Of a stretch of 64,000 bases of DNA, positions 1,041-6,850 are shown one piece after another. The notes under the pieces are model-generated. The model had not been told where the DNA came from, did not search any database, and saw only the letters and a program-made list of their open reading frames with translations. Position 1 is the first letter of the stretch. Every line of letters starts with the position of its first letter. Source of the DNA: Actinomadura formosensis NBRC 14204 (GTDB lineage: Bacteria > Actinomycetota > Actinomycetes > Streptosporangiales > Streptosporangiaceae); contig NZ_BCQQ01000003.1 of the NCBI RefSeq assembly GCF_001552155.1, positions 34,497 to 98,496 on the forward strand. The letters are read 5' to 3'. A program made the position numbers and the translations under genes.

Positions 1041-1078
1041 GGCCCGCGAGGAGGATCGGACCGGATTTTGGCGGTAGC
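1041..1078 (+). repeat. Left 38-bp terminal inverted repeat
   Basis: Exact reverse complement of 5918–5955. The outer end begins GGCCCGCGAGG and the inner end is ...TTTTGGCGGTAGC, resembling the conserved inner ends of Tn3-family repeats. Confidence 0.9.
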
Positions 1079-1170
1079 GGGCTGGGAGGCTGCGTTCGGT
1101 GTGGGCGTCCGGGCGTTGGCCTGCGTGGAGGCTGAGTGCAGAAGTTAGCGGTAGGCCCCGGCACTCGACC

Positions 1171-1206
1171 GGCGATGGTCGCGGCCATCAGGCCGCGACC
1201 ATCGCC
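1171..1206 (-). terminator. Hairpin after the DHA2 transporter
   Basis: A perfect 16-bp stem (1171–1186 with 1191–1206) closes on a 4-base loop ATCA. It sits 34 bases past the stop of the minus-strand transporter. There is no T run, so it is a GC-type terminator candidate, common in actinobacteria. Confidence 0.65.
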
Positions 1207-1239
1207 ATTCCCAGGTCAGTCGTGCGGCGCGGTTGTGGA

Positions 1240-2886
1240 TTACCGCTTTTGGGTGGGCTCGGTCGTCGGCTTGTTGCGCGGGCTGAACAGGAAACACAAC
1301 AGGACAGCGGCCACCAGAACCATGGCGCACGCCACGAGGGTGGTCTGCATGGCGTGGACGAAGCCGGTGGCGAACGTGTCGGCGGTGAGGCGTTCGTACA
1401 GGCTGGTCGTGGTGGGGCTCAGGCCGCCGGGCGGCGTGGGCGGACTGTAGTGCCGCGCGGCGGCGGTGCTGTTGTCGACGAACCGGGCGCGCAGATCCTC
1501 TGGTAGCTGACCGGCGCGCTTCTCGGCCTCACTGTGCAGGGCCGCGGAGAGGCGGGCCGACAGCAGCGCGCCCAGCATGGCGGTACCGAGGACCCCTCCG
1601 ACCTGCCGGATGGTGCTGGAGACACCGGAGGCCGCCCCGGCCAGTCGGGGATCGACGCCGTTCATGGTGGCCTGCTGCAGTGGCGCGAACGTGGCGCCGC
1701 TGGCGATCCCGATGATGGTCAAACCGGGCAGCAGGTTCCACGCGCTGCTGGTGGGGCCGGTCATGGCGACCAGCACCAGGAGGCCGACGGCCAGCAGGGT
1801 CGTCCCGGCCATCAGGATGTACTTGCCGCCGAACTTGTCCGACAGCCGTCCGGCGTACGCCGAGCCGGCCGCGGTGAGCGCGGCGTTCGGCAGCACCACC
1901 AGGCCGGTCTCCAGCGCCGAGTACCCGCGGGCCATCTGCAGGTACAGCACCAGCACGAACATGATGCCGATCATGCCGAGCTGGAAGACGAACCCGACCG
2001 CGTTACCGACCGCGAAGTCGCGCACACCGAACAGGGCCAGGGGCATCAGCGGCTCGTCGCGCCGGCGGTGCTGCCACAGGACGAACACCGCCAGCAGCAC
2101 GGCGCCCAGGGCGATGACCGAGGTGATGGTGACCGGCCCGGTGATGGTGCCCCAGTCGTAGCGTTCTCCCTCGATCAGGCCGAAGACGATGCCGCCGAGC
2201 CCGGCGGTGGCCAGCGCGACGCCGACCAGGTCGAGCCGGTGGGTGCGGCCCGAGCGCAGGGGCGGCGCGAACCTCAGCGCCAGCACGACGGTGATGATTC
2301 CGATCGGGACGTTGATGAAGAAGATCCAGCGCCAGCTGAGGTGGGCGAGCAGGAAGCCGCCGGTGACCGGGCCGACGATCGGGGCGAAGCCGACGATCGG
2401 GGCGAAGCCGACGATCGCGCCGAACAGGCCGAACGCGCGGCCGCGCAGGTGCGGCGGGAAGATGGTCAGGATCGACGAGATGACCTGCGGGAACAGCAGC
2501 GCCCCGCCCAGTCCCTGCAGCAGCCGGGCGGTCAGTAGCCAGGCAGGTGAGTCGGCCGGTCCGCACAGCGCCGAGGCGATGGTGAAGGTGATGATCCCGA
2601 TCACGTACAGCCGGCGGTATCCGAAGATGTCCCCCAGCCGGCCGGTGGTGATCAGCAGCACCGAGAAGACGGGCAGGTAGCCGTCGATGACCCACAGCAC
2701 CTGGTCGTAGGAGGCGTCGATGCCGTGGATCAGCGTGGGAACGGCGACGTTGACGATGGATCCGTCGAGCAACGACATGAAGAAGCCGATGCACATGATC
2801 GCGAGAACCAGCCACGGACGCCGCGTGACCGGCCGGTCGGCGGATCGGAGAGGATCAGAAGGGCGGGCGCGTTTCGTCACCATCAC
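1240..2886 (-). CDS. DHA2 family (EmrB/QacA-type) MFS drug efflux transporter
   Basis: 548 residues, as expected for 14-helix DHA2 proton antiporters of the cell membrane. It shows the family signature LDGSIVNVAVPTL in helix 1 and the RLGDIFGYRR loop between helices 2 and 3 (motif A), followed by repeated hydrophobic segments and a large external loop before the last helix (residues ~445–510). Starts are GTG 2886 or the adjoining ATG 2883; AAAAGGG lies upstream. The gene lies inside the 38-bp inverted repeats, so it is probably transposon cargo that exports a toxic compound; the substrate cannot be read from sequence. Odd: a 6-residue tandem duplication IVGFAP at residues ~157–168, produced by an 18-bp repeat. 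Confidence 0.9.
   Translation of the reverse strand: MMVTKRARPSDPLRSADRPVTRRPWLVLAIMCIGFFMSLLDGSIVNVAVPTLIHGIDASYDQVLWVIDGYLPVFSVLLITTGRLGDIFGYRRLYVIGIITFTIASALCGPADSPAWLLTARLLQGLGGALLFPQVISSILTIFPPHLRGRAFGLFGAIVGFAPIVGFAPIVGPVTGGFLLAHLSWRWIFFINVPIGIITVVLALRFAPPLRSGRTHRLDLVGVALATAGLGGIVFGLIEGERYDWGTITGPVTITSVIALGAVLLAVFVLWQHRRRDEPLMPLALFGVRDFAVGNAVGFVFQLGMIGIMFVLVLYLQMARGYSALETGLVVLPNAALTAAGSAYAGRLSDKFGGKYILMAGTTLLAVGLLVLVAMTGPTSSAWNLLPGLTIIGIASGATFAPLQQATMNGVDPRLAGAASGVSSTIRQVGGVLGTAMLGALLSARLSAALHSEAEKRAGQLPEDLRARFVDNSTAAARHYSPPTPPGGLSPTTTSLYERLTADTFATGFVHAMQTTLVACAMVLVAAVLLCFLFSPRNKPTTEPTQKR
2372..2417. repeat. 18-bp tandem repeat inside transporter gene
   Basis: The unit CCGACGATCGGGGCGAAG occurs at 2372–2389 and 2390–2407, followed by a partial third copy. 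It is in frame and duplicates IVGFAP in the protein. Confidence 0.9.
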
Positions 2887-3204
2887 AAAACACCCTTTTC
2901 CGGGATGTGATGAGTGACCTCCACCTTTCCCGCGTCATCGGGACCCGGGAGAAGCTGGTTGGCGAGGCGGAATGCCCAACGGTGAGAAGCCGGCTCGCGG
3001 CCCAGCACAGCGCGTTCAGCCCGCGTGTAGATCGTCGAGAGGTCGACCCGGGACGCGGACTGTCGATCCGCCCACGCCGGTGTTCGTCAAACGGTCGTTT
3101 CATCTGTGACGAACAGTCGAGGCCGGCGGCCGGGAACGCCCAGGAGGAAGCGTTCATCTGACCGTTCATTTTGTGTTAGCGCCCCGGCTTGATGATGAAC
3201 ACGT
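2887..3204. promoter_or_regulatory. Intergenic region with candidate resolvase res/operator site
   Basis: Between the divergent transporter and resolvase. It contains a 9-bp inverted repeat TGTTCGTCA / TGACGAACA (3081–3089 and 3107–3115) spaced by 17 bases, 35 bp in all, which matches the size of a Tn3-type res subsite. A direct pair CGTTCAT ... CGTTCAT follows near 3151–3170. Location directly upstream of the resolvase supports the reading, but no alignment to a known res site was possible. Confidence 0.4.
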
Positions 3205-3229
3205 TTGCCGAACGCCTGGAGGCGCGAGC

Positions 3230-3822
3230 ATGGCTCTGGTCGGACTCGTCCGGTCAGCACCAAGGATCAGGAGACCGCGCGCCAGCACGACGCGCTCGAT
3301 CCGATCTGCATCAATGTCTTCTTCGAGGAGAAGCGTTCGGGCAAGTTGAAGGTCGACGAACGGCCCGGCCTGCAGGCGGCCCTGGACTACATGCGCCCGG
3401 GCGACATGCTGACCGTCCAGGAGGCCGACTGGCTCGGCCGCAACCTGCTGGAGGGGCTGATCGTCCTGAACGATCTGTTCCAGCGCGGCATCGCCGTCAA
3501 GGTGCTGGAAGGGATCGCGGCCGGTGAGCATACCGAACGCTCCCTCATCCTGGACCTGGCCCTCGCCCTGGCCGATGACCGGCGCCGCGACATCGTCCGC
3601 AAGCCCCGCAACGGCCTGGAGGCAGCCCGCAAACGGGACCGGGTCGGTGGACGGCGCCCGGTGGTCGACGACGACAAGCGCGCCGCGATCCTAGCCCGCC
3701 GCGAGCGCGGGGAGTCCATCCGCACCATTGCCGCCGGGGTCAAGGTCTCGGCCGGCGTCGTCCACAAGACCCTGACCGAGGCCCGGCCAGAAACCCGTGC
3801 AGAGGCCCAGGACGAGCAGTAG
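3230..3822 (+). pseudogene. Serine resolvase (Tn3 TnpR-type), frameshifted near the start
   Basis: ATG 3230 opens with MALVGLVR and the frame must then shift by one base to continue VSTKDQETARQHDALDP, the conserved resolvase start where the Ser of VST is the nucleophile. Bases 3251–3252 (CG) look like an Arg codon lacking its third base. The rest is continuous to 3822 in one frame: the catalytic domain (FFEEKRSGK, RPGLQAALDYMRPGD, LGRN) and a C-terminal DNA-binding helix-turn-helix (RGESIRTIAAGVKVSAGVVHKTL). An open frame from ATG 3205 also exists but reads an unrelated N-terminus. The shift could be a true mutation or a sequencing error. Family members resolve cointegrates during Tn3 transposition. 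Confidence 0.75.
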
Positions 3823-3875
3823 CTCGTGCTGGGCCCCGCTTTACCTGGTGCCTCAGGCAGCGTCGGTCGTCCATC

Positions 3876-4230
3876 ATGCAGACGATCCAGCGGATCCGCC
3901 GCCACTGGGACGACATCCTTCGGGTCGGCGCCTCCATCCATACCGGCGCGGTGCGTGCCTACAACGTCATTCGCATGCTCTCCCGAGACGGCAACCCCAC
4001 CCCGCTCGGGTTGGCCATCGCCCACTTCAGGCGCCTGCACAAGACCCTCCACGTGCTGTCCCACATCGACGACGAGTCCTACCGGCGCGGCATCAAGGGC
4101 CAGACCAGCCTGCAAGAGTCCCGCCACGCCCTGGGACGGTACGTCTTCCACGGCAAACGCGGCGAGTTGCGCCAGCGCTACATCGAAGGGATGGAGGACC
4201 AGCTCGGCAAGCTCGGCCCGGTCCTCGATT
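3876..4230 (+). pseudogene. Tn3 transposase (TnpA) C-terminal fragment
   Basis: About 118 codons match the C-terminal domain of Tn3-family transposases: IRRHWDDILRVGASIHTGAVRAYNVIRML, GLAIAHFRRLHKTLHVLSHIDDESYRRGI and EGMEDQLGKLGPVLDC. A full TnpA is close to 1000 residues, so most of the N-terminal part is missing, and the last segment that normally follows VLNC (ITLWNTVYLD) is replaced by unrelated sequence from about 4230. It lies 50 bases downstream of the resolvase on the same strand, in the tnpR–tnpA order of some Tn3 elements. Clearly non-functional. Confidence 0.85.
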
Positions 4231-4403
4231 GCAGCCACGGGCAGGCCGCACCCGGGAGCTTCGCACCGCGTTTGGTTGCACATCCCTTGGCCGGGTCAGT
4301 GTCGGCCCGGGACTCCCATAAAGAAAGAGGGGCTGCTCCTGCGGCCCGAAATCTCCTCGACGAACAGCTCTATGGGCAGGTCGGACAACGCCAGGATCCG
4401 CAC

Positions 4404-5303
4404 CTAACCAAGTGTCGGCGGGTGCTGTGCCGGACGGCGTCCCCAGGCCGAGATCAGCGGTGCGAGAGTCAGGTCGAGTTCGCCGGCGTGGATGGCGGCC
4501 AGGTGCGCGTCGATCTCGGCGTCGTCGGCCAACCCGGCCGCGAGCAGCTCGCCGCGCACGTGCCGTATGGTCGCCGCCTCCAACCGGTCACAGGCCGGCC
4601 CGCCGACCGGGAACGAGCCCACCGCGGCGACATCTACCAAGCCGGCCTCACGCAATGCCCGCGGCAGCGTCCGGCCGTAGCGCAGGTCCGCGCCGCGGCG
4701 CGTCAGCAGCTCCCGGACCGCGTCGCGCAGCCGGTTGGCCCGCCGCTGCGCAGGGCCGCTGTCGTCCAGGCAGGCCAGTGGCTGCAGAGCGGTATCGGCG
4801 TCCTCGACCAGCAGCCAACCGCCGGGCCGTAGCGCCGCCGCCATCGTGGCCAACGCTCGGGCCCGGTCGGGTACATGGACCAGCACGAGCCGGGCGTGCA
4901 CCAGATCAAACGTCCCCGGCTCCGGGGGCGGATCAGCGGCGACGTCGTGCCGGCGCACCTCGTACCCGTTGCCCGCCTCCAGCCACGACGGGTCGATGTC
5001 GGTGGCCAGCACGTGCCCGGTCGGACCGACGGCCGCCGCGAGCGCCTCCGGGATACTGCGGCCACCGGCCCCCACCTCCCAGCAGCGCGAGCCGGCCCTG
5101 ACCCCGAGCCGATCAAAGTGCGCGCGCGTCACACCGTCGAACAGCTCGGCCAGCCAGACGAATCGCTCGCCCGCCTCGGCGCGCGCGTTGTCCAGCAGAT
5201 ACCCGCGGGCGAATGCGGACTCCCCACCGGGCACGGCAGCCGCGCCGGTCGGATCCAGTCGGCCACCGACGTCAGGCAGGCGGGGCGAGGAGGTCATCAC
5301 CAC
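4404..5303 (-). CDS. Class I SAM-dependent methyltransferase
   Basis: About 299 residues. The SAM-binding motif I reads CWEVGAGGRSIPEAL; the acidic end of strand beta-2 is in ATDIDPSWL; motif IV is FDLVHARLVLVHVP; and a typical LRPGGWLLVEDAD follows. The substrate is unknown; the closest general type is the UbiE/Methyltransf_11–25 group. The start is placed at GTG 5303 because GGGGGAGG lies 8 bases upstream; ATG 5297 is a close alternative, and the frame remains open further upstream to 5357. It is inside the transposon-like block beside an efflux pump, so a self-protection cargo role is possible but only inferred. Confidence 0.85.
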   Translation of the reverse strand: MVMTSSPRLPDVGGRLDPTGAAAVPGGESAFARGYLLDNARAEAGERFVWLAELFDGVTRAHFDRLGVRAGSRCWEVGAGGRSIPEALAAAVGPTGHVLATDIDPSWLEAGNGYEVRRHDVAADPPPEPGTFDLVHARLVLVHVPDRARALATMAAALRPGGWLLVEDADTALQPLACLDDSGPAQRRANRLRDAVRELLTRRGADLRYGRTLPRALREAGLVDVAAVGSFPVGGPACDRLEAATIRHVRGELLAAGLADDAEIDAHLAAIHAGELDLTLAPLISAWGRRPAQHPPTLG

Positions 5304-5369
5304 ATTGTCAACCTCCCCCGGCCACCACGCCACGACGACGGGAGAGGGACATCTCACACAGCCGACGAA

Positions 5370-5600
5370 TTATTCGGCCGCTTCGATCTCGGTGCGGGTG
5401 GTGGGGACCTCGACGGCGCGGCGGCTGCCGGTGGTGAGTTCGGGGACGTACTTGTAGATGGTGGAGCGGGAGACGCCGAGCAGCCGGGCGATGGAGGAGA
5501 CGGTGTTCTCCGGCCGGGTGAGCAGGTCGCGGGCGTTGCGGATCTGCTCTTCGGTCATGGCCGGGGCCGGCCGAGGCGCTGGCCGCGGGCGCGGGCGGCG
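5370..5600 (-). pseudogene. Serine resolvase C-terminal fragment
   Basis: Encodes MTEEQIRNARDLLT then VSSIARLLGVSRSTIYKYVPEL, the helix-turn-helix that ends Tn3-type resolvases. Upstream in a neighbouring frame is AAARARGQRLGRPRP, the linker that normally precedes it, so the join CGGCC/ATG carries another frameshift. No catalytic domain is present on this strand. Confidence 0.8.
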
Positions 5601-5847
5601 GCGAACTCGACCACCTCCGCCGGGACTTTCAGCGGAGTGTCCGCCAGTAACGTGCCCAGCATCCGGACCGTGCCCCACTGCACCGCGCCGCCCAACCGAG
5701 CTTGGTCGCCGGGCGCCGCTTGTCCGCCACCACCGCCCGCGCCTTCGCGTCCAGGCGGAAGAACTGCTCCAGCTCGCCGACCGTCACCTCATCACGGAAC
5801 CGCCGATACCGCGCGACCTGCTCATCCGACAAGAAATCAACTGGCAT
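5600..5847 (-). pseudogene. Tn3 transposase (TnpA) N-terminal fragment
   Basis: Starts MPVDFLSDEQVARYRRF and continues through FFRLDAKARAVVADKRRPATKLGWA, the conserved beginning of Tn3-family transposases (DUF4158 region). At about 5695 the frame shifts and then reads on as VQWGTVRMLGTLLADTPLKVPAEVVEF in a second frame, again expected transposase sequence. It then runs into resolvase-like AAARARG. So it is an N-terminal stub fused to the tail of a resolvase, next to the right inverted repeat. Confidence 0.8.
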
Positions 5848-5917
5848 GCCCCAGGAACGTAGAGCCCCGCCAACCGCACCAAGCCCGCCGTCACCGAACC
5901 GTCGTCAACCCCGCCGG

Positions 5918-5955
5918 GCTACCGCCAAAATCCGGTCCGATCCTCCTCGCGGGCC
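5918..5955 (-). repeat. Right 38-bp terminal inverted repeat
   Basis: Exact reverse complement of 1041–1078. AGTC follows at 5956–5959, matching AGTC at 1037–1040. Confidence 0.9.
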
Positions 5956-6044
5956 AGTCCAAGCACGCCGCCCAGACAGCCTGGGCTGACAAGCTCCTCA
6001 CCAGCGAGAAATGGCGGAGCGGTGATCAGGGCTACGAGTTCGCG

Positions 6045-6700
6045 TCCGGCTGGGCCTGCGGCAGGGTGAGGCGCTCGGACTCCGCTGGAAGTTCATCGAC
6101 CTGGACGGCGGGTCCGTGCGGGTGTAGTGGCAGCTCTCGCGGCTGAAGTGGCGGCACGGCTGCGACGATGTCGCCGCGTGCACTGAGGGCAAGCACCGGC
6201 GCCCGTGCCCGAAGGCGCGGCGGGTGCCCGGCCGGCGGCACACCTGCGTCCCGGCGGCCACCGAGCGGCTGTGCCCGAAGCGGACCAGCGGCGGGCTGGT
6301 GTTCCGCAAGCCCAAGCGGACGGTGCCGCTCCCGCCGGAGCTGGTGCCCGTGCTGAAGGCGCACCGCAAGCGGCAGCGTGAGGGGCGTCTCGCCGCGGCG
6401 AACGCCTGGGAGGACAACGACCTGGTGTACTGCCGGCCGAACGTGCGGCCGATCGATCCGCGCAACGACTGGAAGGACATCCTTGCTGCGGCCGGAGTAC
6501 GGGACGCCCGGATGCATGATGGGCGGCACACCGCCGGGACACTGCTGATCGAACAGAGCGTTCACGTCCGCACCGTTCAGGAGATCCTCGGCCACCCCGA
6601 CATCCGGCTCACCCAGCAGTACACCCACGTCGCTACGCCGAGGGCCCAGGATGGTATGCAGCGCATGGGACGGGCCCCGGGGGGGGGCGCCGTGATCATG
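6045..6700 (+). pseudogene. Tyrosine integrase, 5'-truncated with in-frame stop
   Basis: The frame reads GLRQGEALGLRWKFIDLDGGSVRV, then a TAG stop near 6125, then WQLSRLKWRHGCDD and on through RTSGGLVFRKPKRTVPLPPEL to the catalytic core HDGRHTAGTLLIEQ and LGHPDIRLTQQYTHV. These hold the R...HxxR...LGH...Y set of tyrosine recombinases. The N-terminal SAM-like DNA-binding domain is absent: the right end of the transposon-like block is only about 90 bases upstream. The 3' end runs toward tRNA-Thr, as is usual for integrases of integrative elements that use a tRNA gene as attachment site. A long ATG frame from 6224 covers only the last part. Confidence 0.8.
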
Positions 6701-6777
6701 GGAACTGCAACACGAATTGCAACCAGGACGACGAAGGACGCCCACCGGAATCAGGTGAACGCCCTGGTCACATACCG

Positions 6778-6850
6778 AGCCGCCTGTCGGAATCGAACCG
6801 ACGACCTATTCATTACGAGTGAATCGCTCTGCCGACTGAGCTAAGGCGGC
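6778..6850 (-). tRNA. tRNA-Thr (anticodon CGT)
   Basis: On the minus strand: acceptor GCCGCCT pairing with AGGCGGC, D-arm GCTC...GAGC, anticodon stem ATTCA/TGAAT with loop CTCGTAA (anticodon CGT), T-arm GTCGG TTCGATT CCGAC. CCA is not encoded. The 3' end faces the decayed integrase. Confidence 0.93.

Follow-up and report, generated by a model that had tools for sequence, protein, structure and literature searches.

The 64,000-nt stretch of Actinomadura formosensis DNA that we analysed (the window) contains a 4.9-kb mosaic with Tn3-type ends. In our preferred reading, to which we give a probability of roughly 0.6, this mosaic moved as one unit by the action of a transposase supplied in trans. 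Such a supply is likely because the transposase gene of the element itself, tnpA, survives only as fragments of two lineages. From left to right, the element holds an efflux pump gene, a resolvase remnant, a C-terminal tnpA fragment, a methyltransferase gene, a resolvase HTH remnant and an N-terminal tnpA fragment.

Terminal repeats and target duplication

The left terminal inverted repeat (IRL) lies at positions 1041-1078 on the forward strand, and the right one (IRR) at 5918-5955 on the reverse strand. The two arms are 100% complementary over 38 nt, and 4,839 nt stand in between. Directly outside them, at 1037-1040 and 5956-5959, the sequence reads AGTC on both sides. The exact 38-bp inverted repeat with AGTC outside, which a preliminary description of this DNA had reported, is thus confirmed. 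Elements of the Tn3 family have long terminal inverted repeats, commonly of 38 bp, a resolvase (TnpR, TnpI or TnpS+T) with a resolution site, and replicative transposition that passes through a cointegrate. The long terminal inverted repeat is present in the window at 38 bp.

The left subterminal segment (1079-1172) follows IRL, and positions 1041-1117 are 83% identical in DNA to the left end of an element of A. kijaniata (locus L048). Within this segment, positions 1118-1155 form a degenerate copy of the repeat with 12 mismatches. A degenerate copy just inside one end also occurs at the right repeat of L050 (15370-15407), and its core is found in L096, L109, L110 and L135 too, where it lies thousands of bases from the repeat.

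The preliminary description had proposed that the repeat be searched for in actinobacterial genomes. In our search, the repeat was recurrent: a 27-base core with at most 3 mismatches was found in 46 of 345 genomes of the order, the own genome included, and the reversed pattern in none. A similar 28-base pattern was found in 10 of 394 genomes sampled from the class, and six of these ten (again including the own genome) belong to the same family. In the assembly of A. formosensis, three copies of the 38-nt repeat were found at 3 mismatches or fewer (reversed control pattern, 0), namely the two window arms and one copy with 3 mismatches on contig C77. This assembly consists of 339 contigs, so that a copy of the repeat may be missing from it. 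The copy on contig C77 (1208-1245; locus L003) is single, and by reading it is adjoined by a tyrosine-recombinase-like fragment.

We built a family consensus and a weight matrix from 72 distinct repeat copies and scanned 75 sequences with the matrix, that is, the window and 74 loci, 73 of which had been fetched because they hold a repeat copy. The scan gave 12 convergent repeat pairs. An exact 4-bp target duplication was present in six of them (AGTC in the window, TACT in L045, AGAA in L049, TATC in L050, TCCA in L051 and GGTT in L090), and a 5-bp duplication in none. In a chance control, ends taken from different loci agreed over 4 bp in only 25 of 1873 combinations (~1.3% per pair). Six duplications in 12 pairs are therefore far beyond chance (binomial 5e-9, if the pairs are independent). 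On these counts, the 38-bp repeat is to be regarded as a real transposon end.

The other six pairs, which lack an exact 4-bp duplication, are a caveat to the reading of movement in trans. In L046, the sequence TGCA is shifted by one base; L102 has 3 bp, and L047 and L048 show no duplication. The last two pairs, L133 (210 bp) and L136 (174 bp), are tiny and may not be elements.

The same data bear on the idea that the ends of two different elements came to frame these genes through recombination and that the unit never moved as a whole. Such framing would agree with the patchwork content and with the solitary state of most repeat copies in the loci scanned. However, only ~1.3% of random pairs should agree over the 4 bp adjoining their two ends, and the two window repeats are identical, with 0 mismatches between IRL and IRR as against 3-9 in nine other pairs compared. 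We therefore consider such framing very improbable.

Two kinds of observation which, according to the preliminary description, would speak against a mobile element were partly seen. First, most repeat copies have no partner in the DNA fetched around them, partly because a contig or the fetched stretch ends there, yet the 4-bp duplications recur at six elements. Second, the repeat is absent from those relatives of the cargo genes that we fetched and scanned. Because the 4-bp duplications recur, we read the repeat-free cargo relatives as captured modules and the solitary repeats as decayed or diverged copies, and not as signs of a false element.

Relatives with the same ends

The relatives with the same ends differ in how much of the transposition machinery they retain. 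L051 (8.5 kb) is complete and contains, between its repeats, an inward TnpA, an ArsR-like protein, a CDF-like protein, an MFS protein, a methyltransferase and a tyrosine recombinase, of which the ArsR-like and CDF-like proteins were assigned by reading. Its TnpA has 1013 residues with DUF4158 (PF13700) and the Tn3 DDE domain (PF01526), and is related to the Tn4430 transposase of solved structure (E 1.8e-89). L048, which probably lies on NZ_BCQR01000130.1 and comes from a genome of the same genus as the window, has a simple layout of repeat, serine resolvase, TnpA and repeat; its TnpA has 910 residues and lacks an internal stretch compared to that of L051. Thus TnpA with the Tn3 DDE domain is seen between the ends of L051 and L048, and the window holds only fragments of it.

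The remaining relatives are more reduced. L047 has a near full-length TnpA that is split over two frames. Broken transposases together with other genes are found in L046, L049, L050, L090 and L102, where the other genes include, by reading, TetR-like regulators, an SDR enzyme or a second MFS pump. L090 keeps only the C-terminus of tnpA, and L049, L050 and the window keep broken pieces. Tyrosine recombinases are present in L050 and L051. L045, at 1,187 bp, has no tnpA match at E 1e-4 and still shows the duplication TACT; that is, it is a cargo-only unit. Among the six elements that show a 4-bp duplication, L051 alone has an unbroken full-length TnpA.

The spread of the ends, the six 4-bp duplications and the Tn3 transposases in same-ended relatives bear out the earlier proposal of a Tn3-type mobile element with cargo.

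Remnants of two Tn3 lineages

In amino acids, the serine resolvase (tnpR) remnant (3205-3822, forward strand; PF00239) is 74% identical to the L048 resolvase over residues 43-230 of the latter, and with respect to the ends the two are oriented alike. Its first conserved codons are in a different frame from the rest, as read from the sequence and the open reading frames. Beside it, the tnpA C-terminal fragment (3885-4232, forward strand) covers positions 230-338 of the 389 positions of the PF01526 profile. This fragment is 84.5% identical to the Tn3 transposase of a Nocardiopsis flavescens plasmid (CP054934.1), compared to 56-59% for the transposases of the repeat's own family, and the Nocardiopsis transposase is 48% identical to the TnpA of L048. 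No terminal ends of the Nocardiopsis relative (L191) were found at the thresholds used.

Near the right end, a resolvase C-terminal HTH remnant (5370-5588, reverse strand; PF02796 in the open reading frame 5370-5678, with the right boundary placed by reading) adjoins the N-terminus of tnpA. This tnpA N-terminal fragment (5597-5847, reverse strand) is itself in two frames, which have 91% and 82% amino acid identity to residues 1-55 and 49-82, respectively, of the L048 tnpA product. The right 360 bp of the element (5596-5955) are 91% identical in DNA to L048 and L049, so that the N-terminal fragment and the ends are of one family. The preliminary description had spoken of broken Tn3-family transposition genes, and the tnpA fragments and the serine resolvase that is out of frame at its start agree with it.

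By its sequence, the window element is a mosaic with tnpA pieces of two lineages. Since the tnpA N-terminus and the resolvase match L048, its backbone is probably L048-like, the pump having been added beside the left end and the tnpA body replaced. A search of the own assembly for a full-length tnpA of this family found none, and beyond the pieces in the window there were only fragments; the best own-genome match to the family TnpA was the window's own 116-residue fragment. From this and from the two-lineage tnpA pieces, it is very likely that the element is immobile by itself.

A different course of events can be considered, in which a complete, self-moving Tn3-type transposon with cargo was inserted and then lost its transposition genes in place. 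The remnants keep the L048 layout, with the resolvase inward from the left and tnpA inward from the right, and L051 alone among the ten larger pairs has an unbroken full-length TnpA, which means that decay is common. Similar remains would result if an ordinary insertion had been followed by decay, and the succession of events is undated, which is a further caveat to movement in trans. However, IRL equals IRR and the duplication is intact, yet tnpA is a patchwork of two lineages, for which recombination and not mere decay is needed. The cargo-only L045 with its clean duplication also speaks against loss in place. We consider such loss unlikely, although clearly more probable than the framing of the genes by recombination.

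We therefore prefer movement by a transposase supplied in trans, which may have taken place as follows. An ancestor would have been laid out like L048, that is, repeat, inward tnpR, tnpA inward from the other end, and repeat. This ancestor would have gained the pump beside its left repeat, and the methyltransferase module, together with part of a different Tn3 element, may have displaced the body of its tnpA. A foreign TnpA could still have acted on the repeats that remained and so have copied the package to the present site by replicative transposition of the Tn3 type.

Insertion site

The left repeat begins 11 bases past the stop codon of a SUKH-type gene (499-1029). On the right side, a tyrosine integrase remnant extends from about position 6049 and lies beside a tRNA-Thr gene (6777-6850); together (6049-6850) they probably mark where an older element had integrated beside the insertion. 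The preliminary description had suggested looking for an empty site in a close relative. We searched each flank in 64 genomes of the genus, and no empty site was found: among the matches listed, no genome had both flanks adjacent in the order of the window. A query of the joined flanks against 19 loci (L064-L082) likewise matched one flank or the other only, apart from short matches. For the right flank, the four best matches are similar only from window base 6049 onwards, and no match listed starts before 6040.

Cargo genes

The pump module (1173-2998, reverse strand) consists of a DHA2 efflux MFS gene (1240-2886; PF07690, TIGR00711) and its upstream region, and it includes an inverted repeat at about 1173-1206 that is terminator-like by reading. 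The pump scored 313.1 bits against TIGR00711, whose cut-off is 230.2, and among the best 25 of its 47 NCBIfam matches only this general DHA2 model reached its cut-off. The pump is predicted to export a toxic small molecule. In DNA, the module is 84-90% identical to four genomes of the order, and the window repeat was absent from five long pump loci that include these four nearest genomes.

The pump gene contains an 18-bp in-frame tandem duplication (2371-2417, reverse strand; copies 2371-2399 and 2389-2417, spacing 18). This duplication adds six residues to the pump and is absent from all eight aligned relatives. The extra residues presumably sit in the motif-C segment. The dN/dS values of the pump were 0.35-0.68 against all eight relatives and 0.40-0.57 against the four nearest ones, which is little above the 0.30-0.51 found among those four, so that the window pump is not clearly set apart. 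The idea of a faster-decaying pump in the window was rejected, because the pairwise dN/dS gives no clear singling-out.

The methyltransferase module (4315-5369, reverse strand) contains an open frame at 4404-5357 for a class I SAM methyltransferase, the conserved protein being of about 298 amino acids. Its dN/dS against 11 relatives was 0.11-0.29, and it is thus under constraint. The matches to solved structures were weak, the best being MitM at E 1.3e-8. The enzyme is predicted to act on a small molecule.

Matches to the methyltransferase at E 1e-20 occur in 65 of 342 genomes of the order. In 28 of these 65 (own genome not counted), the DNA is 89-93% identical over at least 800 bases, and three Streptomycetaceae plasmids carry the gene at 90-93% identity. 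The gene recurs with little flanking DNA in mostly unrelated surroundings in the 28 genomes and the three plasmids. We compared 23 methyltransferase loci, from 20 genomes and the 3 plasmids (L009-L011, L154-L173), and found the flanks mostly unrelated, with up to about 350 further flanking bases shared by some of them. The window repeat was not found near the methyltransferase in any of these 20 genome loci and 3 plasmid loci. In four of the 23 loci (L155, L157, L161 and L162), a second Tn3-like end, GGGG-type on its outer and CGCTAAG-type on its inner side, lies near the methyltransferase module.

Cargo bracketed by the window repeat was not found elsewhere among the 20 methyltransferase, 8 pump, 3 plasmid and 5 long pump loci. 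The pump and the methyltransferase are, as far as these loci tell, modules that occur elsewhere without the repeats.

The preliminary description had counted two intact cargo genes. Both frames are indeed open, but the pump has six residues that are absent from all eight relatives, so that "intact" is true of it only formally. The resistance role proposed earlier is putative for both genes. A rival reading concerns function and not mobility. The cargo may be no resistance pair at all; the pump would then be impaired or have another export role, and the methyltransferase would be metabolic or a selfish passenger. The private duplication in the pump, the general model TIGR00711 as its only match over the cut-off, and the mostly unrelated neighbours of the methyltransferase relatives agree with this. 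On the other hand, both frames are open, the methyltransferase is constrained, and the dN/dS of the pump is close to that among its nearest relatives. We put this view of the cargo at somewhat below even odds.

Comparison with known elements

Tn4556 of Streptomyces fradiae has 38-bp repeats, tnpA near one end and directed inward, a tyrosine-recombinase-type resolvase near the other end, passengers that include a methyltransferase, and 5-bp target duplications (PMC6403206). Its layout, so described, is that of the relative L051. In contrast, the window element has no whole tnpA and has a serine resolvase remnant, and the described Tn4556 layout is not readable in it. The 4-bp duplications of the family of the window element also differ from the 5-bp ones given for Tn4556; the comparison is one of published layout and duplication length. 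Since a 5-bp duplication was seen in none of our 12 pairs, we do not file the window's family as a member of the Tn4556 group.

In PMC4133298, Tn3-type duplications are of 5-6 bp, a usual trait and not a strictly defining one, and in PMC7157771 the Tn3 family is grouped by TnpA phylogeny. The window's family departs from the typical 5 bp, with 4 bp in six of 12 pairs and 5 bp in none. We came across no account of these repeats, or of a Tn3-type element that makes 4-bp duplications, in the literature searched, which does not prove that none exists.

Two Streptomyces plasmid elements of the Tn3 type (NZ_CP043961.1 and NZ_CP109010.1) come close to the family. Their TnpA is 64-65% identical to that of L048, their ends are GGCC-type, and they have annotated tnpA, cargo and recombinase genes, as in the window's family. 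Their cargo is unlike that of the window, namely a peptide deformylase and an IPT/TIG protein, respectively, and by reading no 4-bp duplication was seen at their flanks. The former, on a Streptomyces tendae plasmid (locus L187), thus combines the same end type with a gene annotated as peptide deformylase.

Mobile insertion cassettes (MICs) are cargo between transposon ends with no transposase. L045 fits a MIC fully, whereas the window element still holds relics of a transposase and a resolvase. MICs are named in PMC4133298, which also describes the TIMEs of Pseudomonas as transposase-less, mobile units with Tn3-type 38-bp ends that form mosaics with captured DNA. These TIMEs are of 262 bp, their ends are conserved in Tn5563a, and their duplications are of 5 or 6 bp (PMC4133298). 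As described there, they are like the window element in having Tn3-type 38-bp ends and no transposase gene, and unlike it in host group, end sequence and duplication length. MIC- or TIME-like traits of the window element are the ends around cargo, the missing whole transposase gene and the clean duplication, with fragments remaining. In its make-up, it is a derived MIC/TIME-like case, with predicted mobility, of a family that is laid out like Tn4556.

We tentatively propose, as a possibility that we consider doubtful at present, that a Tn3 subgroup with GGCC-type ends and 4-bp duplications runs a gene-exchange system in Streptosporangiales. In such a system, a few full transposons would feed many transposase-less carriers, which would pick up efflux pumps, TetR-type regulators and oxidoreductases, and also the methyltransferase gene that travels beside a second Tn3-type end as well.

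In actinobacteria, genes for export and modification are often suspected to pass from genome to genome. To our knowledge, few vehicles for such movement have been described in Streptosporangiales. The recurrent end core (46 of 345 genomes), the duplication length unlike that of Tn4556 and the cargo-only member together give a search key for such vehicles. In addition, the repeat family would make it easy to test mobilisation in trans and the spacing at which a Tn3-type transposase cuts.
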